Notes under the pieces: generated by a model
The model's input: the letters and a program-made list of their open reading frames with translations, nothing else
Told to the model about the DNA's origin: nothing
Databases searched by the model: none
Part shown: positions 1,680-33,324 of the stretch, one piece after another
Layout: every line of letters begins with the position of its first letter
How positions within the stretch are numbered: position 1 is the stretch's first letter
Program-made: the position numbers and the translations under genes
Origin: an uncultured Thermoanaerobaculum sp.
GTDB lineage: Bacteria > Acidobacteriota > Thermoanaerobaculia > Thermoanaerobaculales > Thermoanaerobaculaceae
Reading direction: 5' to 3'
Assembly (NCBI GenBank): GCA_937934115.1
Contig: CALHAH010000036.1
Span: forward strand, 1-33,333
Length of the DNA: 33,333 bases

Positions 1680-1708
1680 TTGCATTTTCGTCAAAAAAGG
1701 GTCATATT
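1680..1708 (+). promoter_or_regulatory. Possible promoter of the moa-mod operon
   Basis: TTGCAT at 1680-1685 and CATATT at 1703-1708 are separated by 17 bases. This would place transcription start near 1715, just before the candidate Moco riboswitch. The match to the vegetative consensus is only moderate (three and four of six), so this is a suggestion based on spacing and position. Confidence 0.35.
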
Positions 1709-1711
1709 GAG

Positions 1712-1840
1712 GGTGTCTCCGACCCGGGCCGCCTAAAGGCGTGCGCCCAAGGCGGACGGGCGGTGGGCACCGGCGGGTTGCCGGTGGACCCCAAGGGCCG
1801 TCCTGGAAACGGGGCGACCTCCCGGCTTTGGAAAGGAGGC
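1712..1840 (+). ncRNA. Candidate molybdenum cofactor (Moco) riboswitch leader
   Basis: The 130 bases before moaA are packed with paired elements. CTCC (1717-1720) and CCCGGG (1723-1728) can pair with CCCGG (1821-1825) and with GGAG of the ribosome binding site (1835-1838). Inside are a CACCGGC/GCCGGTG hairpin (about 1769-1787) and other GC-rich stems. Position before moaA, multi-stem build, the GGAAAC...CCTCCCGGCTTTGG tract and an outer helix covering the Shine-Dalgarno all fit the Moco RNA motif known upstream of Moco biosynthesis and molybdate transport genes. If so, Moco sufficiency would block translation of moaA and perhaps the whole operon. I could not run a covariance model; the call rests on context and visible pairing. 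Confidence 0.55.
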
Positions 1841-1843
1841 CAT

Positions 1844-2812
1844 GTGACCGTCCAGCCCCCACCTCCCGTAAAACCACAAACGCTTAGGCTTTCCCTCACC
1901 GACCGCTGCAATTTGCGCTGTCGTTACTGTATGCCTGCCGAAGGCGTGGCCTTCATCCCACACCACCAGCTTCCCAGCTTGGAGGAGCTGGCCCACGCCG
2001 TGGCTTTTTTGGTGCAACACTTGCATGTGAACCGCGTAAAGCTCACCGGTGGTGAGCCGTTGGTGCGTAAGGGGGTGGTGGAGCTGGTGGGCCTTCTGAG
2101 GGCCATCCCAGGCATCGAGGAAATTTCCATGACCACCAACGGCACCCGCCTGTCGGCGCTGGCAGCAGAGCTTCGACAAGCGGGGCTTGCCCGCGTGAAC
2201 GTTTCCCTGGATACCTTAAACCGCGAGCGCTTCCGGGAGCTCACCCGCGGGGGTGAGGTCAGTGAGGTACTGGCAGGCATTGCTGCTGCGCAGCGGGAAG
2301 GGCTTGTGCCGGTGAAGCTCAACGCGGTGCTGCGGGCCTCCACCTTCCGGGATGACGTTCCCCAGTTGGTGACGTATGCCGCGCGGGAAAAGCTGGAGCT
2401 GCGCTTCATCGAGCTCATGCGCACCGGCACTGAAGCCGCATGGGCGGAGCGGGAATACGTAAGCGCCCGCGAGGTGCAGGCGTTCCTTGCCCAACAAGGC
2501 GAGCTCGTCCCGCTCGTGGGGCACGCAAACACTCCTGCCCGCCGCACGCTGTTCCGCTACTCCGGTGGAGAGGTGCTGCTGGGTTGGATCACCCCCGTTT
2601 CCCATAGCTTTTGTGATGCCTGTAACCGCTTACGCCTGGATGCTCAGGGGCAGCTGCGGCGCTGCCTTATGGATCCCCTGACCGTGCCGCTGGTGGCCAT
2701 GCTCCGAGAAGGGGAGGCCAAGGCCTTGGCAGCCCTCGGCCCGTACCTTGCGGGCAAAAGACCGCCAGCGGCTATGGACTCGCAGCTGCCCATGAGCGCT
2801 GTGGGAGGCTAG
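1844..2812 (+). CDS. moaA: GTP 3',8-cyclase MoaA
   Basis: Radical SAM enzyme that converts GTP to 3',8-cyclo-GTP, the first step of molybdopterin synthesis, in the cytoplasm. The start is GTG at 1844, four bases after GGAGG (1835-1839); the open frame runs further upstream, but only through the structured leader. At 322 residues the length is normal. The N-terminal [4Fe-4S] motif CNLRCRYC uses Cys22, Cys26 and Cys29. The second cluster motif SHSFCDACNRLRLD with a further Cys 13 residues on (RRC) is present. The protein ends in Gly-Gly, the conserved C-terminal tail that MoaA needs for activity. Its stop is two bases before the moaC start, and it leads the operon moaA-moaC-MOSC/mogA-modABC. 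Confidence 0.95.
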   Translation: MTVQPPPPVKPQTLRLSLTDRCNLRCRYCMPAEGVAFIPHHQLPSLEELAHAVAFLVQHLHVNRVKLTGGEPLVRKGVVELVGLLRAIPGIEEISMTTNGTRLSALAAELRQAGLARVNVSLDTLNRERFRELTRGGEVSEVLAGIAAAQREGLVPVKLNAVLRASTFRDDVPQLVTYAAREKLELRFIELMRTGTEAAWAEREYVSAREVQAFLAQQGELVPLVGHANTPARRTLFRYSGGEVLLGWITPVSHSFCDACNRLRLDAQGQLRRCLMDPLTVPLVAMLREGEAKALAALGPYLAGKRPPAAMDSQLPMSAVGG

Positions 2813-14139: not shown

Positions 14140-16155
14140 TCAAGGCCTCTTTCCCTCCGCCTCCGGCAGCACCAGCGGCGGCACGGGCATAAAAGTTTCT
14201 TGCGGTGGCAAAGGGCTGGGGACAGCCCATTGCGCACAAACTCGCCCGTCCCAGTCCACCGCTTCCAGCGTCAAAGGTTGCCCCACCGGGGCCCGCCACA
14301 CCACTAGGGGTTGCTCTGGTGCCGGCGGAAAATTCGTGAAAAAGGAAAAGCCCTCCGGCAGCGGGAACCGTCCCGCTCGTCCCCAGTTCCACACGTAACG
14401 ACCGGGGTTACAGGTGGCGGCCAAGCGTTGGGAAATGCCGCCAGGAAGCACCGCCACCCCTGCCGCCGCCAAGCGAACGGAAACCGTGGCGTCTGCCCCT
14501 TCGGGAACGGTGGCAAAACCCAAAGCCACGTGAGGGTTGTTGCTAATAACGGTGAGAAAACCCGCACAACGCGGCACATCCGAAAGCACGGCTACACCCG
14601 AAGTTGCAATTCGCGTGCTCGCCACCAAAAGCCCGGGGGCATCGAAACACGTAAACGAAGCCATGTAAAAGCTTTCCCCATGACCTGTAGCCGTTTTTCC
14701 CTCTGCAGGCTCTTCAGTTTCCTGGTTCACCACCACGCTCACATCACGTCCAGGCCGCAGCTCCACGGTCACGTTCCGGCTCACCTCCGCTGGGCCGAAA
14801 AAACCTTCCGCTCCTTGCACCAACACCATGGCCTTTTCCGCCGCAATGCCCGGGCAGGAGAAAACACCCTGGCTATCCGTCGTTCCTTCGCAAACGGTCC
14901 CTCCCGGTCCGGCAATCCAGGTAGCCCTGGAAGCCACCGCCACCCGAACGTGTGGGGCAGCCCTGCCCTGGCGATCTTTGACAGTGATGGCAAACTTCCC
15001 CTGCGGGAGACGCAGCTCCAGCTCGGACTTGCGGCTTCCCGGTGCCACCAAAGCCTCATCGAAGACATGCAGGAACTGCCGTTGTTGGCACTCCAGGGAA
15101 AGGCGTACCGGCTCCTGGCGCCGCAACCGTAGGGAAAAGACAGCTGGCTCCTTCGCAACAGTGGTTGCTTCCCACAAGCCACCGTACCCAGTGGCCACCA
15201 CCCGGCAAGGCCAAAGCGCCTCGTCCACACCCGCAACCCGCCCCCGCAAGGTCCACGGCGCCAGCGGAACCGCAAGTGACACGTTGTCTTTCGGGGCAAT
15301 TTCCACGGCGCTGCGCCACAGGTAGTCACCAGCAGTTGTTCCAAGGCCCACTTGGGCAAGGTACCAGCCAACGGGAAGCTTGTCCCATACCACTTCACGA
15401 CCCGCCTCCAAAGCCACCTCCGCCACCGCCTGGGCACCGCTTTGGGCGGATTGCGTCCACAGGCTCCAAAGCGGGCGCAAAGAGAAGCGCAAGCTTCCCA
15501 GCGCCGCGGCTTCCTCCGGCATGCGGACCGAAAGCCCACCACCGGGTGGCAGAGACAGGCGCCCCAAATCGCCACCGTCGGGGGGCACCGTGACGTTCCA
15601 CACTACCCGGGCGGTTCCTTCCCCTTCAGCTGCCAAACTAACTCGGCTTTTTGCGGGAAGAAAAAGGGAAAACTTCCCATTTTCGTCGCTTATTGCTCCC
15701 AACTTCTCCAGCAAAAAGGCGCGCCCCTGCGGGGTGAGGCGAGGATCCCGGGCCAGCCCGGCGTAGTACACCCGAGCCCCCGCAAGCGGCTTGCCGAAAG
15801 CCTCCGCCACCACCGTACCGGAAACTTTCACTGCCGCACCCACAGGACAGGAAAAGGCCCCAGCCTTGGCCGCCGTGACCTCCACCGCCATGGGCGTATC
15901 GCCAAAGCCCCGCGGCGTGAACCCTGGGGCGGCACAGGAGAGCTCGTACGATCCAGGCGGAAGATGGGCGCCAATGGTGCCTGCCGCCGGCACCACCGCC
16001 TCGAAGACCACCTCATTGCTTTTTGGGTTGCGAAGCACAACGTACGCAGGTCCCGGGGGTGTGGCACCCCCAGGGCCCACCACATGAATCTCCACCGGCA
16101 CCAAGTCTCCCGTAAGGGCGGCCGATGCCAGTGATACCAAAAGGGCAAAGCTCAT
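14140..16155 (-). CDS. Large exported protein with carboxypeptidase-regulatory-like repeats (module B)
   Basis: A 671-residue protein starting MSFALLVSLASAALTGDLVPVEI, with a signal peptide cleaved near residue 14. It contains several repeats of the kind seen in CarboxypepD_reg-like/prealbumin-like beta-sandwich domains: LPPGSYELSCAAPGF near residue 70, then VKVSGTVVAEAFGKPLAGARVYYAG, and FAITVKDRQGRAAPHVRVAV with a following GVFSCPG. No enzyme motif is seen. It probably sits in the periplasm, at the outer membrane or outside the cell; no barrel or anchor is apparent. It follows the interrupted Cys-rich peptide gene at 16223-16504 by 67 bases, with a GGGTGGGGGT stretch before the ATG. It is similar in size and build to the protein at 16864-18903, suggesting paralogues. 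Confidence 0.8.
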   Translation of the reverse strand: MSFALLVSLASAALTGDLVPVEIHVVGPGGATPPGPAYVVLRNPKSNEVVFEAVVPAAGTIGAHLPPGSYELSCAAPGFTPRGFGDTPMAVEVTAAKAGAFSCPVGAAVKVSGTVVAEAFGKPLAGARVYYAGLARDPRLTPQGRAFLLEKLGAISDENGKFSLFLPAKSRVSLAAEGEGTARVVWNVTVPPDGGDLGRLSLPPGGGLSVRMPEEAAALGSLRFSLRPLWSLWTQSAQSGAQAVAEVALEAGREVVWDKLPVGWYLAQVGLGTTAGDYLWRSAVEIAPKDNVSLAVPLAPWTLRGRVAGVDEALWPCRVVATGYGGLWEATTVAKEPAVFSLRLRRQEPVRLSLECQQRQFLHVFDEALVAPGSRKSELELRLPQGKFAITVKDRQGRAAPHVRVAVASRATWIAGPGGTVCEGTTDSQGVFSCPGIAAEKAMVLVQGAEGFFGPAEVSRNVTVELRPGRDVSVVVNQETEEPAEGKTATGHGESFYMASFTCFDAPGLLVASTRIATSGVAVLSDVPRCAGFLTVISNNPHVALGFATVPEGADATVSVRLAAAGVAVLPGGISQRLAATCNPGRYVWNWGRAGRFPLPEGFSFFTNFPPAPEQPLVVWRAPVGQPLTLEAVDWDGRVCAQWAVPSPLPPQETFMPVPPLVLPEAEGKRP

Positions 16156-16222
16156 AGGCGACCCCCACCCTTGCTAGCATGGTGCCATCAATGACATACC
16201 TGGGCTAGAGCACAGTAAAGTC

Positions 16223-16504
16223 TTAAGGCCATGGCGCCCACCACCAATCCTGGTAGTCAATATCATCACTGCCACCGCCACCTCCTGGCGCTGGACACCT
16301 ACAGGATTCTTGGCAATCCTCACAAAAGCCGTACGGGCCACAATAGCAATCATAGTAACCACTTTGCGCACTGGCGCAGTAGCACAAGCGCGGCCCCTGC
16401 ACCGCCCTTTGGCATTGAGCCATAGCTCCTTAGGGAAAGGTACACAGCACAGTGAAGATAGCCGCGATCCATGCGTGCGTAAAAACGGCCACTGCTTTTC
16501 TCAT
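16223..16504 (-). pseudogene. Cys-rich exported peptide with in-frame TAA in its signal peptide (module B)
   Basis: Read from the ATG at 16504, behind GGAGG and cassette B, the frame encodes a signal-like start (MRKAVAVFTHAWIAAIF, then TVLCTFP). A TAA follows at 16430-16432, and the same frame then continues with GAMA-QCQ and a Cys-rich mature part down to 16223. GAMA before Gln-Cys is a good signal peptidase site, and the paralogue in module C has LPGKAVAQVC at the same place, so the stop replaces one codon of the signal peptide. The mature part has about 12 Cys, a run of five Gly and an aromatic tail (YQDWWWAPWP). An internal ATG at 16423 could restart translation but without an export signal. 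Either a nonsense mutation, read-through or a base error explains this. Confidence 0.7.
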
Positions 16505-16755
16505 TTCTTCCTCCCTTCCTGCCTCCGCGCTTCCCGGCGCGGGGCTGTTGGTTTGGAGGATAAGACCATGCTTTTTTTTGTCAAGACCCCTGGATTCGTC
16601 CAAAACGTTTGGCACGCCTTGGTGGATTCGGAGAAAACCTGGATAGGGGTTTGGAGCTTCCCGGCGTGGTGGGGGACGGGGGTGGCTCCTTACGAACATG
16701 TCCTGAAGGCTGCGGCTTGCCCGCTCCACGAAGGGATCTTCCTTGAGCAAACCTC
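16505..16755 (-). promoter_or_regulatory. Promoter-leader cassette, copy B
   Basis: On the minus strand: a long conserved upstream region (to about 16755), the dyad CCAAA-N3-TTTGG at 16600-16612, TTGACA at 16579-16584, an A tract of eight, GCATGGTCTTATCC, a hairpin CCGCGC/GCGCGG (16525-16530 and 16537-16542), GGAGG and the start codon at 16504. Over roughly 250 bases it is nearly identical to copy D (21227-21475), including stretches well upstream of any core promoter. Open frames crossing it differ in amino acids between copies, which argues against it being coding. Confidence 0.7.
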
Positions 16756-16863
16756 AACCTATAAGGTTGCCCCATGGCTCGGAAACGACGGGTAAGTTCC
16801 CCAGAGTCCGCCAAAACGGGCATCCTCCGGCCGTAACCTAGCATCGGGAAAAAAGTGGTCCGC

Positions 16864-18903
16864 TCATGGGGAAACGGGCTTTTCCCGGAGTTCTCGGGTT
16901 TCCCCAGGGCCCACCACAAACCATTTTCCCCGCCACACCGGTTTGCAAGCTTCGTCCGTGACCACCGGCCGGAAACGGCCTGGCGCGACCCGCTCCCATC
17001 GCTTGGAGATACGCCCCGCAGTAGTGGCATCGGCACCAAACGTCAGGACCTCAAAGGGATCCGTGCCCAGAAGTGCTCCATTTTCGGTTTCCAATGTGCA
17101 AAAAACGCCGCCCTCTGGCAGGCGCTCCGGTGACCAGGCCACTGTAGCCGCACTGGAAGCCTGAAATACCCCCAAAAAGCCTCGTTTTTCCCCTGGCAAA
17201 AAGATCTTGAAATGGCCCAGCGACTTTGCGTGGGCCTCTGAGGTTAGCAGTGCCACCAATAGCGAGCCGTCCACGTCAGGCATATTGGGGATCACCGCCT
17301 CACCCTTTTCATCCAGTACTCCAACCGTAAGTCCCTCAGCGCCCTTAGGGGAAAACTGCAGCTGAGCGCCCACCGGGTTGCCTTCCTCATCCACCACCCG
17401 AAGGCTAACCTTTTTGCCCGGAGAAAGGCGCAAAATGAGCGACGAATCCACCACCTGCTCTTCTATAGCCCAGCCCAAATCCAAACGATAAGCCCAGGCA
17501 ACGAGCGGCCCTTCCGGGGCGGCAGGGCAGGAAAAACGCCCGTTCGCATCGGTCTTGCCACGCCAACTGAACCCGCTGCCGCTGCAAGATTGCGAATTAC
17601 TTAGGCGGACTTCCGCAAAAAACACGGGGTTGCCGTTAACATCCACAACCTGCCCATTCACCGGGCGCACAGCCGCTGCAAGTTGGATGTCCTTTTTACC
17701 GGCACCCTCTGGCATGTGCACGGTTTTTAGTGGAACTAGGCTTTCACCCGCACCCTCCCGCCGCCGCAAGCCCAGAACCCAGGGCCCCGAAGCCTCAAGC
17801 AGAACTGCAAACTCGCAAGCGCTTGCGCTTTGCCAAGTCCCAGCCACGCGGTAGTGAAACCGTGAAGAGAAAGCCCAAGGCTCAAAGTCCGAGCAGCGAG
17901 CCTTATCAAGACCGGAAACCTTTACCGTAACCTCCCACCGGGTGGGCGTAAGCACGACTTCCTGAAAACTGGAAGGTGCCACAATAAAGGGAGGCGTGCT
18001 GTGGGAAGGGCGGTAGGTCATCCCTTGGGGGATGCGACCCCGGCTGCGACGGAGCACGCTTTCCGGCAACGTGCTCAAAAGCGCCCAATACGTTCCTGAT
18101 GGTACCGACGCAAACAAAACAGTACCATCCTCCCCCAGAGGCTTTGAAAGCAAAGCCATGCTTACACTTTTAGGGTCGAGAAGGCGCGGGGTGTCTTCTC
18201 TTGGCTCGCCAGGAGGAACTAACTCCACCCACCATTTCTCTTGAGTAAGCTCTTTGCCCCAAGGCTCCACCCGCACCCTGACGCTTGCTCCGCCCTCAAG
18301 TGCCACGTCTCCAAGCTCAATTCCCTCAGAGCTCACCACCAGGGGTCCAATCACTTCCATAGCGTGCTCCGGCGCCCTGGCCACCAGAGTAACCCTGTCG
18401 CCCGGAAGAAGCCCCAAGGCAAAATGGCCCTCCGTACCGCTCACGCCTTGGTGTTTCAACCGCAAATGCCTCTCCAGCATCTCACTTTCGAAGGGTAGCT
18501 CCCGGAGGGCAAGAAAAGACGGTTCCACCTTGCCGCCAACCAGGGGTTTCCCATCTCGCTTGGACAACAGTCGACCCTTCACCGCCACCAAAGGGAGCAA
18601 GTCACAGCGCACTCTCTGCGGTTTGCCATCCTGCAAAATCAAACTCATGCTCTTGTTGGCGTGCTTCTCAGCGCCGCAGACAACGGTGTACTCACCCGGG
18701 TTGAGGGAAAGCTTCCAGGCGGGGAGGGAAGAAGGCAATTCCGTTTCCGCAACTAGACTCTTGCCTTGAAGAATTGCTGCGTAACGAAGAGTGGCAGAAA
18801 TGTCGGCACCTAGGCTGGAAAAGGTAATCTCCACATCCACAGGCGCTCCCGCTGCCTTCCCGCCGCAAAGCGCTACCGCCAACACTAACAACCTCAGCCT
18901 CAT
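16864..18903 (-). CDS. Large exported protein with carboxypeptidase-regulatory-like repeats (module C)
   Basis: A 679-residue protein. The start is ATG 18903 (MRLRLLVLAVALC), five bases after GGAGG; an in-frame ATG at 18915 would overlap that site. The signal peptide ends near GGKAAGA. Repeated beta-sandwich motifs are visible: LPAWKLSLNPGEYTVVC near residue 65, VKGRLLSKRDGKPLVGGKVE near 110, VNGQVVDVNGNPVFFAEVRL and VSLRVVDEEGNPVGAQL further on, each typical of CarboxypepD_reg-like domains. No catalytic motif was seen. It is similar in length and build to the protein of module B. A GC-rich hairpin at 18921-18944 lies between it and the Cys-rich peptide gene before it, so expression may be tuned inside the operon. 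Confidence 0.82.
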   Translation of the reverse strand: MRLRLLVLAVALCGGKAAGAPVDVEITFSSLGADISATLRYAAILQGKSLVAETELPSSLPAWKLSLNPGEYTVVCGAEKHANKSMSLILQDGKPQRVRCDLLPLVAVKGRLLSKRDGKPLVGGKVEPSFLALRELPFESEMLERHLRLKHQGVSGTEGHFALGLLPGDRVTLVARAPEHAMEVIGPLVVSSEGIELGDVALEGGASVRVRVEPWGKELTQEKWWVELVPPGEPREDTPRLLDPKSVSMALLSKPLGEDGTVLFASVPSGTYWALLSTLPESVLRRSRGRIPQGMTYRPSHSTPPFIVAPSSFQEVVLTPTRWEVTVKVSGLDKARCSDFEPWAFSSRFHYRVAGTWQSASACEFAVLLEASGPWVLGLRRREGAGESLVPLKTVHMPEGAGKKDIQLAAAVRPVNGQVVDVNGNPVFFAEVRLSNSQSCSGSGFSWRGKTDANGRFSCPAAPEGPLVAWAYRLDLGWAIEEQVVDSSLILRLSPGKKVSLRVVDEEGNPVGAQLQFSPKGAEGLTVGVLDEKGEAVIPNMPDVDGSLLVALLTSEAHAKSLGHFKIFLPGEKRGFLGVFQASSAATVAWSPERLPEGGVFCTLETENGALLGTDPFEVLTFGADATTAGRISKRWERVAPGRFRPVVTDEACKPVWRGKWFVVGPGETRELREKPVSP

Positions 18904-18920
18904 GAGGGCCTCCAAAGGAG

Positions 18921-20914: not shown

Positions 20915-21226
20915 TTAAGCTTCGCACTCATCAATAAACTCTGGGTAGTCAATGGCACATTGCAGGGCACACCGCTCGTACCTGCGTTGTGCTTCTTCCA
21001 CGCACCAGGCGCAACACAATCGGCACCAACGAAGCAAGCGGCACAGCGCCAAATCATTCTGCAGCTCATAACAACAAGCATTACAGCACGCATCACCGGG
21101 ATCATCGCCCCAGACCAGACGGCAACCACCAGCCCACGCTGGAGACGGCAGCCACAACCCGCATAAGCTGAGGGTTATGAGGGCAAGTGCCAACAAAGCC
21201 TTATGTTTCCCCTTTGTATGCAGCAT
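20915..21226 (-). CDS. Cys-rich exported peptide (module D)
   Basis: A 103-residue protein starting at ATG 21226 (MLHTKGKHKALLALALITLS), with AAGGAGGAAAGGA just before it. The signal peptide ends PSPAWA, cleaved before GGCRLVWG. The mature part of about 70 residues has 13 Cys, many in pairs (ACCNACCYEL, RLCCAWCVEE), and an acidic C-terminus (DECEA). The CC and CxxC density could suit a metal-binding or multiply disulfide-bonded helical peptide; that is inference. It shares no obvious sequence with the peptides of modules A, B and C beyond signal and Cys content. Confidence 0.78.
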   Translation of the reverse strand: MLHTKGKHKALLALALITLSLCGLWLPSPAWAGGCRLVWGDDPGDACCNACCYELQNDLALCRLLRWCRLCCAWCVEEAQRRYERCALQCAIDYPEFIDECEA

Positions 21227-26345: not shown

Positions 26346-26399
26346 GGTAATGACCTTCCCCCCGGGGAACAGCCACCCTGTGGAACGCGTTCGTCGCCA

Positions 26400-26701
26400 T
26401 GGAGGCTTGTTTCGAGATTCTCGGCACAAGCCAAGTGGATTTGGGTACCATCCCCTCACCCCTCATCTACTCCAAGCTTTTTGGCTGCAAAAAAGGCGCC
26501 TTCACCGGCGCCGAAGAGCGCAAAGGCTTGGTGCGCACCGCCCACGGCGGCACGCTGTTTCTCGACGGAATTGGCGATGCGCCCCTCGAGGTGCAACCGT
26601 GCCTTTCGCAGATGGTGGAGGCAAAAGCTCTGGGGACCCGCTGGGAGAGCGGCTCGTCGCCGAGGTCCTTGCCGGCAACGTTCCCCTCCCCGTGCTTTTA
26701 G
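26400..26701 (+). pseudogene. Fragment of a sigma-54 activator AAA+ domain
   Basis: The frame holds SKLFGCKKGAFTGAEERKG followed by GGTLFLDGIGDAPLEVQ, the central part of NtrC-type enhancer-binding proteins. The GAFTGA loop that contacts sigma-54 is intact. In Walker B the catalytic Glu of the usual FLDEIG is Gly here. There is no Walker A, no receiver domain and no DNA-binding helix-turn-helix in the neighbourhood, and similarity ends soon after PLEVQ. It is a dead fragment of about 90 codons. Confidence 0.75.
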
Positions 26702-26990: not shown

Positions 26991-28667
26991 TCAACGTTGC
27001 ATACACTCCAGCGGAGGTCGGGCCTTTTGCTGTTGCATTTCTACCACCTCGTCCACAAAACCCAGGGGGGCGAGGCGATGGGTTACCCAAAGGATGGCCG
27101 GGTTCCAAGGCAGGCAGTGAAGCTGGTGCAAAAGGCGCTGCTCGGTGGCGCGGTCGAGGCCGGCGGTAATCTCATCCAGGAGCAGCACCTTGGGACGCAA
27201 GAGCAAGGCCCGAGCCAAGGCTAGCCTTTGCTTTTCACCTCCGGAAAGGGAAGCTCCTCCTTCCGCTAACGGCGTGTCCAAACCCTGGGGCAATCGGCGC
27301 AACGCCTCTTGCAGCACACAACGTGCAAGGACCTCCTCCAGCTCCCGTTCTCCGGCGTGCGGCGCAAACAGCACCAGGTTTTCGCGAATGCTCCCCGCAA
27401 AAAAACGAGGTTCTTGGGCCACTAGAACCACGCTTCGGCGAAGTTCCGAGAGGGAAAAACGGCACAGCGGCGTGCCATCAATGAGGATTTCGCCCCCCGC
27501 TACCTTCGCCATTCCCACCAAGGCGCGCAGAACGGAGCTTTTGCCCACACCGGTTTCGCCCACAAGCGCCACCCATGCGCCAGGTTGCAGCACAAAGGAA
27601 ACGGGGCCGACGGTGCGCCCTTGCCCCGGCTCCACCCGCAGGTCCCGAACCTCAACGGTGGGCTTTCGTGGCAAAAGGCCCGTCCCGAAGCTCACATTTT
27701 CCTGGGGCCAATCCATCACCTCCAGGAGGCGCTGTCCGGCAGCCAGTGCTCCAGCCACGTCAAAACTGGCACCCACAAGACTGCGCACGGGGCCAAAGAG
27801 GTACCCCAACGCCCCATGAAAGGCCAAAAAGGAACCCAGGGTAAACTGCCCGCGCATGATGGCCCAAGCACCGTACCACAGCACAAACAGCGGCAACACC
27901 GCACCGCCTGCAGCCGCCACTGTGGAGGCCTTTGCGGAAAGAAAGCCGTAACGGCGATCGCTGGTCAAAGCATGGTTGAGGCCTTCCCGGTACTTTCCCT
28001 GGGCTGGGCTTTCACCTCCGTGGGTTTTCACCGTGGCAAAAAGGGAAAGCAGTTCCACCAAAACCCCACGAAAGCGAGCCCACGCCTCCTGCCGCACCCC
28101 GCTTTCCCTTTCCAGGGCCCCCATGTACCGTTGGGAAGTCCAAAGGAAAAAAGGCACAGCCAAGAGGCTAACCACCGCCAGAAAGCTGTTGAGGTAAAAC
28201 AAAAGCCCCACGCCCACCAAAAGCGTCACCACCTGCAGGAGCACCTCCAGGAAGGTATCCAAAAACAAATCCCCAACCCGGTCCACATCCGCATCCAGGC
28301 GAGCCTGCAGGTAACCCTTGTGTTCTCCTTCGGTGAGGGAAACTGGGGCAAAGAGCGTTTTTTCCCAAAGCGCTTCCCGCAAGCTTTGCTCAACCCGCAC
28401 CCGGTTTTCCACCATGACTCTGTGGAAAAGGTAGGTCAACGCGTGGTAAGCGGCCACCACCGCCACCAAAACACCTGCCAAAAGGTGCAAGCGGGAAAAC
28501 TCCCCGGAAGGGATCACCTGATCAATGAGGTAACGGGTCACCAAAGGTGCCGGAAGTTGCAACGCGGCAGAAGCAAAAAGCAGCAAACCCGCAGTACAAG
28601 CCAAGGGCCACTGCTTTTTTTGATGCTGCCACAAAAGCTGGAAAACGCGCCGGTGCTCAGGCTTCAT
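26991..28667 (-). CDS. ABC exporter, fused membrane and ATPase domains (RiPP export)
   Basis: A 558-residue half-transporter of the exporter type. Residues 15-300 hold about six membrane helices (for example 20-40, 60-82, 140-175 and 250-290). The ATPase part has Walker A GETGVGKS (370-377), a Q-loop Gln near 418, signature LSGGE (474-478), Walker B VLLLDE with Glu499 and switch His530. There is no N-terminal C39 peptidase domain (no Cys/His protease motif before the first helix), so it does not cut leaders itself. Its start overlaps the radical SAM gene by 11 bases, which ties it to the operon. Likely cargo: the modified peptides encoded at 32219-33324. A lipid or drug exporter is the alternative if context misleads. 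Confidence 0.88.
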   Translation of the reverse strand: MKPEHRRVFQLLWQHQKKQWPLACTAGLLLFASAALQLPAPLVTRYLIDQVIPSGEFSRLHLLAGVLVAVVAAYHALTYLFHRVMVENRVRVEQSLREALWEKTLFAPVSLTEGEHKGYLQARLDADVDRVGDLFLDTFLEVLLQVVTLLVGVGLLFYLNSFLAVVSLLAVPFFLWTSQRYMGALERESGVRQEAWARFRGVLVELLSLFATVKTHGGESPAQGKYREGLNHALTSDRRYGFLSAKASTVAAAGGAVLPLFVLWYGAWAIMRGQFTLGSFLAFHGALGYLFGPVRSLVGASFDVAGALAAGQRLLEVMDWPQENVSFGTGLLPRKPTVEVRDLRVEPGQGRTVGPVSFVLQPGAWVALVGETGVGKSSVLRALVGMAKVAGGEILIDGTPLCRFSLSELRRSVVLVAQEPRFFAGSIRENLVLFAPHAGERELEEVLARCVLQEALRRLPQGLDTPLAEGGASLSGGEKQRLALARALLLRPKVLLLDEITAGLDRATEQRLLHQLHCLPWNPAILWVTHRLAPLGFVDEVVEMQQQKARPPLECMQR

Positions 28668-29985
28668 GGGGTGTTTCTCTTTGCTGCTCTTGCCACCACC
28701 AGCGGTAGTACGAGGCCAGTTGCCTTTCCAGGTAATACCGCCACCCGGAACAATCCTTGCTGGGTAAAAGCCCCTGGGAAGCCTTGACCCTCACATCCAC
28801 GCAGCCGCCAGCGCACAGGGGCAGGAAGCGGCACTGCAGGCATTCGGGGTCTTGGTCAAAGCCCGCCACCAAATACTGAACATACAGCGGATGGTTCACA
28901 GCCGCGTCAAACACCGTGCCCACCACAGCCTTCGCGTCCCCCACGTGGTTCCAACACCGGTACAACTCACCTTGAGGCCCCACCACAAAGGAGCACGCGG
29001 CGGTGGCTGTACACCCGGAGGCCAACTCCGGGTAAAGCGGCTGGGAAAGACCTCGCGCCACCAGCTTTTGGCCCAGTGCCTCCTGCATCTGCCAAAACGC
29101 CGAAGGCTTGAGCATCTCATCCAGGCCGCACCCACAGGACGGTGTGTACTTCCTTACGTAGCCGAAATGCACGCCAACGCACTGGGGGTCAAACCAAGGT
29201 TCGGCCATGAGAGTTTCCACGAAATCCAAGGCGTGCTCAGCGTTGTGCTGGTCCACGTTGACCCGTAAAGAGATGGGTAAGATTTTTGCCACACGCTCCA
29301 GGTTGGCCACGATGCGCGCGTAGGAGCCTTTGCCGGAGCGCAAAGGGCGGCGTTGATCGTGCACGTCGGGAGGACCATCCAAGGTCACTTGCGCAGAGGA
29401 GACCTTGGCAGCAAGCAATCGCTGCGCTACCTCTTCCGTGAGCAACGTGCCGTTGGTAATAATGCTAGCCTCATAACTGACGTGCTTTTCCTCCGTTACG
29501 CGCAAAAACCCTTGCGAAAGCGCCTCGATGGTATCCAAGGCCAAAAGCGGCTCACCCCCGTACCATGTGACGCTTAAGAGCTTGGCACCCCCTTGCATAA
29601 GCTCGCCGGCAAAACGCACCACGGCGTTTTTGGTTTCGTCGCTCATGAAGCCCGTAAAAGAACTCTCAAAGCAATAACGGCAGGCTAAGTTGCACGCCAA
29701 AGTTGGTGCAATGGTGAGGCCAATGTGGCTGGTGGCGTACTGCTGCATGCGGTAGCGCACCCGTACCACGTCGCGCTCGTCCAGCTCATCGGCAATGACG
29801 AAACCGCCCCTTTGCAGCTGGCATCGGGTTGCCTCCGGCAAGCTCCAGAACTTTTCTTCCGAAAAGTTTTCCAAGCAGTCGGCACACGCCTCATCCACCA
29901 AGGCTAAACCGTTAGTGAGGGCGTTGTAAGCCAGGCGCTTTTCGCCATCTACGGAAAACAAAAATGTGTAACGTGAAGCTTTCAT
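28657..29985 (-). CDS. Radical SAM/SPASM peptide maturase
   Basis: A 442-residue enzyme starting at ATG 29985 after GGGGGTGG; the in-frame ATG at 30006 lies inside the previous gene. Residues 1-85 look like a precursor-binding wing (YTFLFSVDGEKRLAYNALTN, then LDERDVVRVRYRM). The radical SAM motif CNLACRYC gives Cys98, Cys102 and Cys105; WYGGEP at 141-146 follows as the SAM-binding GGE. The SPASM domain holds Cys325, Cys331, Cys344 (GELYRC) and CLQCRFLPLCAGGC with Cys382, 385, 391, 395, then Cys412, enough for two auxiliary clusters. Cys284 and Cys286 (SCGCG) are extra. Such enzymes make thioether or carbon links in ribosomal peptides. Four Cys-bearing short peptides encoded upstream in the operon are the obvious substrates (inference). 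Confidence 0.9.
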   Translation of the reverse strand: MKASRYTFLFSVDGEKRLAYNALTNGLALVDEACADCLENFSEEKFWSLPEATRCQLQRGGFVIADELDERDVVRVRYRMQQYATSHIGLTIAPTLACNLACRYCFESSFTGFMSDETKNAVVRFAGELMQGGAKLLSVTWYGGEPLLALDTIEALSQGFLRVTEEKHVSYEASIITNGTLLTEEVAQRLLAAKVSSAQVTLDGPPDVHDQRRPLRSGKGSYARIVANLERVAKILPISLRVNVDQHNAEHALDFVETLMAEPWFDPQCVGVHFGYVRKYTPSCGCGLDEMLKPSAFWQMQEALGQKLVARGLSQPLYPELASGCTATAACSFVVGPQGELYRCWNHVGDAKAVVGTVFDAAVNHPLYVQYLVAGFDQDPECLQCRFLPLCAGGCVDVRVKASQGLLPSKDCSGWRYYLERQLASYYRWWWQEQQRETPHEA

Positions 29986-29993
29986 GCCACCCC

Positions 29994-32174
29994 CTAAAAA
30001 TACCAACTTACCTTTACAAAAACCTGTTGCCGTTCAACTCGATCCCAAAAAGGCTGCGGCAACTCCCCTTCCCTTTCCAAAGCCACGTTGGCGCCAACGT
30101 AAACCGCAGAAAAGGGGTTCACGCGATAGGTTAGCAAAGCGTTGATAAAGCGAGAACGAAAAGCCAAAGCGTAGTCAAAAAAGCGCAAGTCTTCGTCTAC
30201 CAAAAATACCTTGGCCGACCACTGCTCGTTCCACACATAGGTCAGCGAGCCTTGCCACGCCTTTTGCGTGCGGGCACCAGAGCCAAACGAAAAAGATTCG
30301 TAAACCAATACCCCAGTAAACCCGGCAAGACTGGAGCTCAAAGAGGTACCCCAGGCGCGACTGGCGCCTTGCCAAGGCGCCGGACCGTAAACCACCTCTC
30401 GGCCCAAGAGAGCCCAAGCCGCGGGTTGAAAGAGAGGCCTTTCCCCCCACATTACGCCAACGGTGGCCGAGCGCGTGCGGGGAAACTCCTGGCCGCTTAC
30501 GCCTTCGGTCCCCAAACGCCCGTTGAGGTACATGCGCACCTGATGCGGCAGCGTCACATCCGCGTAGCCCAGCAGTGTTTTCTCCACCAGGAGACCCTTC
30601 GTCGTGCGCTCGCTCCTCCAAGCGAGGTACGCGTTGCTGCCACGAACCAGACCCACGTCTTCTCTTGGTTTGTAGCTGTAATTCTGCTGAAGTTGAAATA
30701 TTTCCCTGTCGGTCCTTACCACAAACCCGGCATCGGCGCGAAAGGAAGGGGCTACCCGTTGCCAAGAGCCGGAAGTGCTCCAATACTGATCCCAACGGTA
30801 ACGAACTTCAAAAATGGCAGCGCTGCCAGAAGAAGATTTTTCGGGGCTGGAGGTGGAAGAAAAAGCCACCTGCCCATTCCAGGAAAGCCTTTCCCCGTTC
30901 CTTGCGGCGTCGAGGGAAAAAACGCCGTTACGGTGGTCAGCGCCAAAGCCGCGGTAGGTAGCTGTAGCACCCAAAAAAGAGCCCACTTCGTCCAAGGACC
31001 AGGTACTCCGAAGCACACCCCAGGTGGTGGTTTTGTCGCCCCCGCGTAACCCAAAACGCCCGGCGGGCACGTTTTCCTCTTGCGCCAGTAGGGCAAAAAC
31101 CCCCAGCTTGTCGCCACGGTGGGAAAGTTTTAAACCCCACTCGGGCTGTACGATCTTTCTGGAGTAGTACAGACGAATAGGCGTTGCAAAGGACTCAGCT
31201 CCCTCCAGGAAAAAAGGCCTTTTTTCACGAATGAAAACCGGGTAGCGGTTGTTGATCTTTTGGTACGTATCATCGGCCTCCACTTGCGAAAAATCAGGGC
31301 GGAAGGTGCCTTTGACTGACGTGTCCTGCCGCACCTGCCACTCAGCGGTGAGGCCCAAGGCACCCTCCGCTGAACGTGTACGCGTTGCCTGCTCTTCCAC
31401 GATATGAGAACCCACCCACGCGGGGATGAGATGCCAGCTGCGGGCCGGCTTGACGCCCTCGATATCTACCAACACGTACGCCATACCTTCCCGCGGGTCC
31501 TCGGAAGCGCGGTCCACGGGCAACAGGCTGTAAACTTCCGTGTCTTGCCGCGGCACGTAACGCTGCACACCCAGCAAAAAACGGGCCTGCTTTCCCGGCG
31601 CAAAGCTTAAGCTTGAAAACGGAATCACCAGCTCACACTCCCAACCGGTATCGGTAATACGCGCCCCGTGGCGAAATAGGAGATCGTAACTTAATTGACT
31701 GCTTCCCGCGGCAATGTCGTAAAGCCCATCGACGACGTCGTTCATGGGCGTCACGACAAAAAACACAAGCTGCTTCGCCTCACCAGTGGGATCGAGAAAA
31801 ACCTCCACGCGCTCCGAGTCAAAAGCCTCATCGCGACGGTACCTTTGCCTTTTTATCTCCTGGGGCCGGGGGTCGTGGGCACGGAACCCCACCACCAACC
31901 CCTCTGCGTTCGAAAAGAGGAAAAGCTCGGTTTTGCGGGCAGGCTGCGCGTTTTCTCGCGGGGCTGTTTCCACGAACCGTTCCCAGTGAAAGGCTTGAGC
32001 GTACTGCGGCTCATCCAGGGCGCCGTCTGCCTTCACTTCGCCTTCCACCTTGGGCAAGGAAAAGGTGGGAGGCTCGGCGGCGCCTGCGGCAGAAGAGCGT
32101 AAAAGCAAAGTCACCACAAGGACGGGGAAAACAGCACTTTGGCAAAAACCAAACCACACCTTGCCTAAAGCCAT
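29994..32174 (-). CDS. DUF5916-like outer membrane protein with CBM9-like N-terminal domain
   Basis: A 726-residue protein. The start is ATG 32174 (MALGKVWFGF), with GGAGCTGGAGG before it; the longer frame covers the preceding intergenic palindrome. The signal peptide ends near residue 33 (SAAGAA-EPP). Residues 38-235 look like a CBM9-like beta-sandwich (GALDEPQYAQAFHWERF, then ERVEVFLDPTGE). The stretch DFSQVEADDTYQ...YPVFIREKRPFFLEGAE (294-327) is the hallmark of the DUF5916 family. The remaining 400 residues are amphipathic strands of a barrel, ending VKVSWYF with the terminal Phe used by the barrel assembly machinery. Its role is unknown; placed between RiPP precursors and maturase it may be the outer-membrane exit or receptor for the peptide (inference). 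The stop is 8 bases before the maturase start. Confidence 0.85.
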   Translation of the reverse strand: MALGKVWFGFCQSAVFPVLVVTLLLRSSAAGAAEPPTFSLPKVEGEVKADGALDEPQYAQAFHWERFVETAPRENAQPARKTELFLFSNAEGLVVGFRAHDPRPQEIKRQRYRRDEAFDSERVEVFLDPTGEAKQLVFFVVTPMNDVVDGLYDIAAGSSQLSYDLLFRHGARITDTGWECELVIPFSSLSFAPGKQARFLLGVQRYVPRQDTEVYSLLPVDRASEDPREGMAYVLVDIEGVKPARSWHLIPAWVGSHIVEEQATRTRSAEGALGLTAEWQVRQDTSVKGTFRPDFSQVEADDTYQKINNRYPVFIREKRPFFLEGAESFATPIRLYYSRKIVQPEWGLKLSHRGDKLGVFALLAQEENVPAGRFGLRGGDKTTTWGVLRSTWSLDEVGSFLGATATYRGFGADHRNGVFSLDAARNGERLSWNGQVAFSSTSSPEKSSSGSAAIFEVRYRWDQYWSTSGSWQRVAPSFRADAGFVVRTDREIFQLQQNYSYKPREDVGLVRGSNAYLAWRSERTTKGLLVEKTLLGYADVTLPHQVRMYLNGRLGTEGVSGQEFPRTRSATVGVMWGERPLFQPAAWALLGREVVYGPAPWQGASRAWGTSLSSSLAGFTGVLVYESFSFGSGARTQKAWQGSLTYVWNEQWSAKVFLVDEDLRFFDYALAFRSRFINALLTYRVNPFSAVYVGANVALEREGELPQPFWDRVERQQVFVKVSWYF

Positions 32175-32218
32175 GGCACCTCCAGCTCCACAACCCCGGC
32201 ACGCCGGGCCCAGGTACC

Positions 32219-32383
32219 CTAACGCTTGGGTTTTTTCCCTTTTTTGTTGCTGTCCTTCCCCCGAGGAGGCGCGGATACCGCAGTGCACTGAAAACTAGCC
32301 TTGTGACACTGGCACACCTTGGAGCAAACCGGCGGATCGTTTGCGCCAAAAAGTGCAGCTGGCAGGACTATCCATCTGATCAT
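32219..32383 (-). CDS. RiPP precursor peptide 4 (diverged)
   Basis: A 54-residue peptide from ATG 32383 with AAAGGAGAGAGGCG upstream. The start MIRWIVLPAALFG is a shortened version of the leader motif of the other three precursors: Trp at residue 4 instead of 11 or 12. The core is CSKVCQCHKASFQC (Cys20, 24, 26, 33), pattern C-x3-C-x-C-x6-C. A long basic tail follows (GKDSNKKGKKPKR), unlike precursor 1. It lies 44 bases before the outer-membrane protein gene, with a GC palindrome (CCCGGC/GCCGGG) in the gap. The short leader may weaken or change maturase recognition. Confidence 0.75.
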   Translation of the reverse strand: MIRWIVLPAALFGANDPPVCSKVCQCHKASFQCTAVSAPPRGKDSNKKGKKPKR

Positions 32384-32534
32384 GTTCGCCTCTCTCCTTT
32401 CCTTAGTTTCATAAGTTACTCCTCAGGACACTTCATTGTACCCCCTTTTGGCCGCTAGGGGTAAATCCTCAAAGACCCACAAGCCTTCCGACCGCATCCA
32501 GGGCTTAAAACTTCTCAATTCTATCAGTACACTT

Positions 32535-32708
32535 TCATTGGTTTCTCCTCCCCCTCAAACCCTCAACGAATCCGGAAAACACATCGCATTTAAGACTTTG
32601 CTTGCGGCAATCACATTTTATAATGCAAACCCTCGCAGCCACAGGCAAAAGCCCACTTGATGGCTCCACAAGCCAACGAATTTGGTTGGCTACGTTTTGA
32701 AAAGGCAT
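32535..32708 (-). CDS. RiPP precursor peptide 3
   Basis: A 57-residue peptide starting at ATG 32708 (MPFQNVANQIRWLVEP), five bases after GGGAGGA. The leader motif is IRWLVEPSSGLLP at residues 10-22, aligned residue for residue with precursor 2. The core is CIIKCDCRKQSLKC (Cys28, 32, 34, 41), pattern C-x3-C-x-C-x6-C, followed by a basic tail ending RGRRNQ. No Sec signal is present, as expected for a peptide that is modified in the cytoplasm and exported by a dedicated transporter. Confidence 0.82.
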   Translation of the reverse strand: MPFQNVANQIRWLVEPSSGLLPVAARVCIIKCDCRKQSLKCDVFSGFVEGLRGRRNQ

Positions 32709-32851
32709 GCTTTCCTCCCGCAAAGCACGCATCTATGGGTGCGAGCTTCGACACTCACACCGCTTGCTATTCGTCGTTACGGATACAAGGTCTCACCTCT
32801 CGCCACAAAAGCCCGCCTTCACCATGGGCGCAGAAAATTCACTCCCGAGAA
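32709..32851. other. Gap between precursor 2 hairpin and precursor 3
   Basis: About 140 bases without a gene. A TTGACC lies within the neighbouring hairpin at about 32866-32872 on the minus strand, but no convincing -10 partner is seen, so an internal promoter is only a possibility. Confidence 0.3.
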
Positions 32852-32893
32852 CGGGAAGCACCGGCAGGTCAAGCCCCGCCGGCGCTGCCTCCC
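32852..32893 (-). terminator. Strong hairpin just after precursor 2
   Basis: Starting seven bases after the precursor 2 stop, the minus strand can fold into a long stem: CGGGA with TCCCG outside, GC-CCGGC with GCCGG-GC inside, and a loop of about a dozen bases. The following TTCTCGGGAGTGAATTTTC is only mildly T-rich. It fits a partial terminator or mRNA stabiliser that would keep precursor 1 and 2 transcripts more abundant than the downstream enzyme genes. Confidence 0.5.
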
Positions 32894-32899
32894 GTTATA

Positions 32900-33073
32900 C
32901 TAACGATTTCGTACCACACCCTTGTGAGAGCGTCCTACGAAGTTGTTACACTTAAAGCCGGCCTTGTTGCACTCGCAGTCTCCCCCACAGCCGCCTTTGA
33001 TCCGACCGGGAAAAAGCGCACCCACGGGCTCGGAAATCCAAACGAGTGGCCGGTTCCCGTTATTTCCTGTCAT
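32900..33073 (-). CDS. RiPP precursor peptide 2
   Basis: A 57-residue peptide starting at ATG 33073 (MTGNNGNRPLVWISEP) with GGGAGG six to seven bases upstream. The leader motif LVWISEPVGALFP spans residues 10-22. The core is CGGDCECNKAGFKC (Cys29, 33, 35, 42), pattern C-x3-C-x-C-x6-C, followed by NNFVGRSHKGVVRNR. The Phe two residues before the last Cys is shared with precursors 1 and 4 (Leu in 3). It is the second gene of the visible operon, 89 bases after precursor 1. Confidence 0.85.
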   Translation of the reverse strand: MTGNNGNRPLVWISEPVGALFPGRIKGGCGGDCECNKAGFKCNNFVGRSHKGVVRNR

Positions 33074-33162
33074 TAGACCACCTCCCTTTCAAAAGCCTAA
33101 TCTCCTGCGGTTTAAGGTTGCGTAGCGTCGCAGACCTTGCAGCCAACGATGAATTGACCGAG

Positions 33163-33324
33163 CTAGTTCTTGCCATTCTTTGGCGTGTACGTACCGCACT
33201 CAAACGTGCCGCCGTTGTGGCATCGGCATCTCACGATGCAGATTTCACTGCGTTTTGCAAGGGGCAAAACCTCAGCCACCGGGTCCTTAAGCCATACAAC
33301 GGGGTTGCTTGCCAAACCGTTCAT
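33163..33324 (-). CDS. RiPP precursor peptide 1
   Basis: A 53-residue peptide starting at ATG 33324 (MNGLASNPVVWLKDP); only AGGA is visible as a ribosome binding site because the window ends nine bases upstream. The leader motif VVWLKDPVAEVLP lies at residues 9-21. The core is CIVRCRCHNGGTFEC (Cys29, 33, 35, 43), pattern C-x3-C-x-C-x7-C, one residue longer than the others between the last two Cys. A short tail GTYTPKNGKN follows. The operon promoter and perhaps more precursors lie beyond the window edge. Confidence 0.83.
   Translation of the reverse strand: MNGLASNPVVWLKDPVAEVLPLAKRSEICIVRCRCHNGGTFECGTYTPKNGKN

Follow-up and report, generated by a model that had tools for sequence, protein, structure and literature searches.

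Seven genes at one end of a 33,333-nucleotide stretch from an uncultured Thermoanaerobaculum sp. (contig CALHAH010000036.1; the whole stretch is hereafter called the window) very probably form an operon that makes cross-linked, cysteine-rich peptides for export, placing it among the ribosomally synthesised and post-translationally modified peptide (RiPP) systems. All seven lie on the minus strand between positions 26991 and 33324 and encode four short precursors, a DUF5916 outer-membrane-type protein, a radical SAM/SPASM peptide maturase and an ABC exporter. Because genuine Clo7bot clusters have leaders of this kind as well, the system is, judging from its sequences, best called a new branch of the Clo7bot/TIGR04463/CefB/geopeptide maturase group with a DUF5916 partner, and not an unplaced class. 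The first-pass annotation had read the locus as a RiPP operon that fitted no nameable class. The biosynthetic assignment gained support, as homologous enzymes adjoin such peptides at other loci, and the outer-membrane-type protein is indeed an unusual partner, but the enzyme falls in the recognisable Clo7bot/TIGR04463 group.

The open reading frame (ORF) listing agreed exactly with the arrangement described earlier, including the one-strand orientation, the 8-base gap between the DUF5916 and enzyme genes (29986-29993) and the 11-base overlap between the enzyme and exporter genes (28657-28667). The window is a complete contig (C36) of its genome (2.42 Mb, 52 contigs). As the contig ends 9 bases upstream of the first precursor gene, the precursor array may be incomplete beyond the edge.

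The four precursors are P1 (33163-33324, minus strand; 53 aa, MNGLASNPVVWLKDPVAEVLPLAKRSEICIVRCRCHNGGTFECGTYTPKNGKN), P2 (32900-33073, minus strand; 57 aa, MTGNNGNRPLVWISEPVGALFPGRIKGGCGGDCECNKAGFKCNNFVGRSHKGVVRNR), P3 (32535-32708, minus strand; 57 aa from the ATG at 32708, MPFQNVANQIRWLVEPSSGLLPVAARVCIIKCDCRKQSLKCDVFSGFVEGLRGRRNQ) and P4 (32219-32383, minus strand; 54 aa, MIRWIVLPAALFGANDPPVCSKVCQCHKASFQCTAVSAPPRGKDSNKKGKKPKR). P1 matched the precursor profile at 84.5 bits, with P1 itself included in that profile, and P2 to P4 were identified from the ORF listing, the precursor profile and a start signal. Shine-Dalgarno-like stretches were observed a few bases 5' of the ATG of P2 (GGGAGG), P3 (GGGAGG) and P4 (GGAGAGAGG), and the start signal of P1, at the contig edge, is AGGAATAAAATG. 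Each peptide has a W-[LI]-x-x-P leader, with the first core cysteine about 12-18 residues further on, and all four contain the core C-x3-C-x-C-x6/7-C, as the first-pass annotation had noted for these peptides of 53-57 residues. ORFs of up to 80 aa with both leader and core numbered four in the window and zero in 100 dinucleotide shuffles, in which the core alone appeared 0.07 times per shuffle (maximum 1). These shuffles ruled out an origin of the peptides as chance ORFs. Across the loci compared below, several precursors carry Lys- or Pro-rich tails. The window peptides gave nothing above cut-off in Pfam and matched no NCBIfam model; P4 showed a sub-threshold TILa match (15.7 bits, cut-off 27). 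A precursor profile search of the same genome found no convincing further precursors.

Alignment of 20 precursors from seven loci revealed a common M-x-W-[ILV]-x-x-P leader, in which the tryptophan is invariant and the proline nearly so; one of the two precursors in genome G111 reads MKWIVKDK, without the proline. Precursors near homologous enzymes numbered two in G017, one at the first G064 locus (G064a), four at the second (G064b), two in G111 and six in G407; one more was counted in G253, whose locus is described below. At more distant loci the leader varies as M-x-[YFW], true Clo7bot peptides included. Maturase homologues thus do occur next to such peptides, the point on which the first-pass annotation had staked its reading: leader peptides were found on the gene strand at 14 of 31 loci (39 peptides), compared with one locus of the 31 (1 peptide) on the opposite strand. 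The cores are more variable. One G017 peptide and the G253 peptide have C-x6-C-x-C, most G064b peptides C-x5-C-x-C-x4/5-C, and the G064a peptide C-x6-C-x5-C-x6-C-x5-C; relatives keep the W-[ILV]-x-x-P leader and, mostly, the C-x-C centre. The four-cysteine spacing, which had been put forward as a class mark, was rejected as a mark of the family, the fourth cysteine being absent from the G017 peptides. It is a local trait of the four window paralogues, and it is the leader that is conserved.

Two tandem arrays were also observed beside related maturases. The six G407 precursors lie in a row (L124 2530-4211, plus strand) and contain repeated C-x-C and GGLV motifs (e.g. CSCTGGLVVCKCKGGLVV), with no barrel gene at the locus. 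A Wallbacteria record (L024 3997-4932, plus strand) holds six MxWIEKPE/Q precursors in tandem, their cores rich in Cys; the one precursor checked had no NCBIfam match.

The maturase (28657-29985, minus strand; 442 aa) matched Pfam Radical_SAM above cut-off (64.6 bits). Both features that define the radical SAM/SPASM maturase superfamily, already reported in the first-pass annotation, were located: the CxxxCxxC motif at C98/C102/C105 and the complete set of seven SPASM cysteines (C325, C344, C382, C385, C391, C395 and C412). An AlphaFold2 model built from a 36-sequence alignment (pLDDT 92.5, pTM 0.90) predicted a fold whose best match was CteB (Foldseek E 1.8e-21; VIA Z 29.2 over 390 residues, model residues 4-428), followed by anSME, ChlB and TigE. 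CteB was matched from model residue 4 and TigE from residue 1, so that the N-terminal domain would correspond to the RiPP recognition element (RRE) of CteB, which holds the leader of a peptide that becomes a thioether product (PMC8326336). The best NCBIfam models were TIGR04334 (Clo7bot), TIGR04463, FlmE/OhkG, CefB and geopeptide, all aligning over the full length and all far below their cut-offs. The locus therefore shows what defines a RiPP system, precursors that adjoin a peptide-modifying enzyme able to recognise a leader, in its four conserved-leader precursors, predicted RRE-like fold and recurrence.

The exporter (26991-28667, minus strand; 558 aa) combines membrane and ATPase domains on one chain, with ABC_membrane and ABC_tran both above the Pfam cut-off and no Pfam match to a peptidase domain. 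It adjoins the enzyme in the window, G017, G064a, G064b and G111. The operon holds no protease gene, and thus no candidate enzyme for leader removal.

G017, which belongs to another family, has the complete operon with its genes ordered as in the window: two precursors followed by the barrel, the enzyme and the exporter. Its enzyme, barrel and exporter share 52%, 39% and 42% identity with those of the window, respectively, and both its precursors carry a WLxDP leader. Among 60 related genomes, a close enzyme was detected in G017 only. At E 1e-60, the enzyme was restricted to its own genome and G017 among 37 genomes of the order, and across the phylum it passed E 1e-70 in 14 of the 396 genomes sampled. 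Searching the classes to which G064 and G111 belong brought in nothing further. The distribution of the system is patchy. In the contig scan, the window enzyme alone gave no matches and a three-row profile gave 80 loci.

The DUF5916 protein is the most distinctive feature of the locus. Its gene (29994-32174, minus strand) encodes 726 aa from the ATG, with the N terminus MALGKVWFGFCQSAVFPVLVVTLLLRSSAAGAAEPP; the longest ORF would start at 32288 and overlap P4, and translation more likely begins at the ATG at 32174, which follows a GGAGGT. PF19313 was matched at 29.1 bits (cut-off 22.6), in line with the earlier description of the protein as DUF5916-like. Because of its family and a signal-peptide-like N terminus, judged by eye, we infer an outer-membrane barrel. 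A PDB sequence search with the protein returned nothing at E 1, and one relative has a CBM9-like domain just under the cut-off (22.3 compared with 23.4). With loci chosen by enzyme alone, the barrel adjoins the enzyme in the window, G017, G064b and G111 and at no other locus. A tree of 37 enzymes joined these four with G064a (SH-aLRT 89, by a quick method), placing a barrel at four of the five loci of the window's enzyme clade. The barrel gene precedes the enzyme gene in the window and G017 and follows the exporter gene in G064b and G111. A profile of the operon-type barrel matched 9 of 396 genomes at E 1e-120, a count that is partly circular, as the profile was built from these loci.

Two incomplete loci were also observed. 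In G253, a precursor lies by an exporter end at a contig edge, the barrel is 4 kb distant, and a search for the enzyme found none. G306, among the nine genomes matched by the barrel profile, retains a relic in the gene order of the window: a leader peptide whose core is interrupted by an in-frame TGA, a barrel, and a cut enzyme whose ORF keeps only the first ~85 residues. The relic precursor (L183 9912-10070, minus strand) reads MRNELFKITWIHDPITENIMTFMPEDLEICGIQ*SCHGAGGC, with the TGA at the position of the second core cysteine of the window peptides. Because the truncated enzyme lies alongside, simple decay of a cysteine codon is the likeliest explanation.

Taken together, we consider it probable that the locus is a RiPP operon of the Clo7bot/TIGR04463 group with RRE-bound leaders, thioether closure, ABC export and a dedicated outer-membrane barrel. 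Cross-linking, its thioether type and export would follow from the families named above. The precursor leaders would dock on the N-terminal RRE-like domain of the enzyme, which would abstract a hydrogen near the core cysteines so that sulfur-to-carbon (thioether) links close around the C-x-C centre. The ABC exporter would then carry the product, or its leader-bearing form, across the inner membrane. What the DUF5916 barrel does exactly is a guess: it might serve the peptide at the outer membrane as an exit port, or as a surface receptor or means of self-protection. Several observations weigh against parts of this scheme. The four window cores lack a shared acceptor (Asp, Glu or Thr at one position), in contrast to the C-x3-D/E of PapB. 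A single-sequence model of the barrel reached a pLDDT of 29.2, with no fold obtained. G064a, in the same enzyme clade, has no barrel within 12 kb, and DUF5916 is common, with 53 of 60 related genomes having one at E 1e-20 or better. Furthermore, the single-contig genome G173 has an operon-type barrel and no enzyme match, and the operon-type barrel of G019 adjoins another DUF5916 gene.

The lack of a fixed acceptor, together with the basic tails, bears on the chemistry, which may be thioether formation or another radical reaction. The enzyme might act by epimerisation or form carbon-carbon or other links, leaving the cysteines free for metal or disulfides; its fold group spans several chemistries, and a C-x-C with flanking cysteines resembles metal sites or disulfide-rich modules such as the one hinted at by the TILa match of P4. 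However, the best full-length fold match is a thioether synthase, CteB, and the nearest named maturase group works on Cys-rich peptides, so we prefer the thioether and regard a different outcome as unlikely. Peptide-derived cofactors are also among the products of SPASM enzymes, and the modified peptide could give rise to a redox or metal cofactor, in the manner of PQQ or mycofactocin, instead of being a secreted effector. Divergent paralogues at most loci and the ABC exporter better fit a variable exported product, and we give the cofactor explanation only a slight chance. A slighter chance still attaches to the operon being in decay and inactive in its own genome. Few convincing ORFs lie in the flank at 21-27 kb, which contains a sigma-54 activator remnant, and such decay is seen in G306, but in the window none of the seven genes is broken: start signals are present, motifs are complete and the genes are tightly spaced.

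The barrel could instead be merely co-transcribed, with a function of its own that has nothing to do with the peptides, such as the handling of glycans or polymers. DUF5916 is widespread, G173, G398 and G019 keep operon-type barrels in the absence of the enzyme, and the position of the barrel varies between loci. We nevertheless think this rather unlikely, as the adjacency holds at four of five clade loci, three of them outside the window's order, and the barrel has been kept alongside the precursor and enzyme relics in G306. Moreover, the window's genome has only two DUF5916 genes, which makes chance adjacency small (a rough estimate of about 0.005 per locus). The barrel does belong to the module but can be separated from it, and a role as surface receptor or in protection therefore fits no less well than one purely as exit port. 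The fuller proposal, that a radical-SAM-modified peptide has its dedicated exit port or receptor in the barrel and that the W-leader/C-x-C peptides form a new cross-linked RiPP subclass, is tentative, and we doubt that it holds as a whole.

The leader signature marks out a new branch within a large group of maturases. The operon also connects an outer-membrane-type family that is still uncharacterised with the export or reception of peptides, a function testable in one small operon; if the barrel is a dedicated port or receptor, this would be the first function for the widespread DUF5916 family. One enzyme with four natural, differing substrates could also be of use in the study and engineering of cross-linked peptides.

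Other features were observed in and around the window. No convincing sigma-54-like promoter was found upstream of the precursors; one match falls within the P1 coding region. A fragment of a sigma-54 activator AAA+ domain (26399-26701, plus strand; PF00158, 67.8 bits) lies ~300 bases downstream of the exporter gene, and an intact GAF/sigma-54 activator lies just upstream of the G064b precursors (L120 2198-3691). A molybdenum cofactor riboswitch (1705-1854, plus strand; RF01055, 66.9 bits) was detected ahead of a MoaA-like radical SAM ORF (1763-2812). At 20915-21226 (minus strand), a secreted-looking protein of 103 aa with 14 cysteines (GGCRLVWGDDPGDACCNACCYELQNDLALCRLLRWCRLCCAWC...) and no Pfam match adjoins large secreted-looking proteins with CarboxypepD_reg domains (14140-18915).

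A search of one collection of papers found none naming Clo7bot, geopeptide, TIGR04463, TIGR04334, TIGR04280 or DUF5916, and none on this gene combination. Among known systems, PapB/freyrasin likewise pairs a radical SAM/SPASM enzyme with a Cys-containing precursor, and the window enzyme scored 122.7 bits against its model (cut-off 340). PapA carries six C-x3-D/E motifs, whereas the window cores have no such fixed acidic acceptor; ranthipeptides are defined by a cysteine linked to a non-alpha carbon (PMC9413430). It is the predicted fold similarity to CteB that would suggest ranthipeptides here. CteB, which acts in the SCIFF ranthipeptides (PDB 5WHY, 5WGG), is the closest solved structure by both fold (Z 29.2) and sequence (E 3.8e-17), with an N-terminal RRE, a radical SAM core and a two-cluster SPASM domain, but identity is about 20%, leader and core differ, and the window has several variable paralogues. 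TIGR04463 (rSAM_vs_C_rich), CefB, FlmE/OhkG and geopeptide belong to the same enzyme group, aligning over the full length at 210-265 bits, although all remained below curated cut-offs (264.6 bits compared with 525 for TIGR04463) and the window precursors were unmatched. For Clo7bot, the precursor model TIGR04333 matched no window peptide at E 1, nor P4 at E 10; a positive control in an uncultured Clostridia genome (L021) scored 775.5 bits for the maturase and 40.8 and 47.9 bits for the peptides (cut-off 31). The window enzyme reached 268.6 bits against TIGR04334 (cut-off 600), and the window differs in its longer peptides, C-x-C core and DUF5916 barrel. Nevertheless, the enzyme aligns with TIGR04334 over its whole length, and Clo7bot precursors likewise start M-x-[YF]-[IV]-x-x-P, are Cys-rich and occur several per locus.

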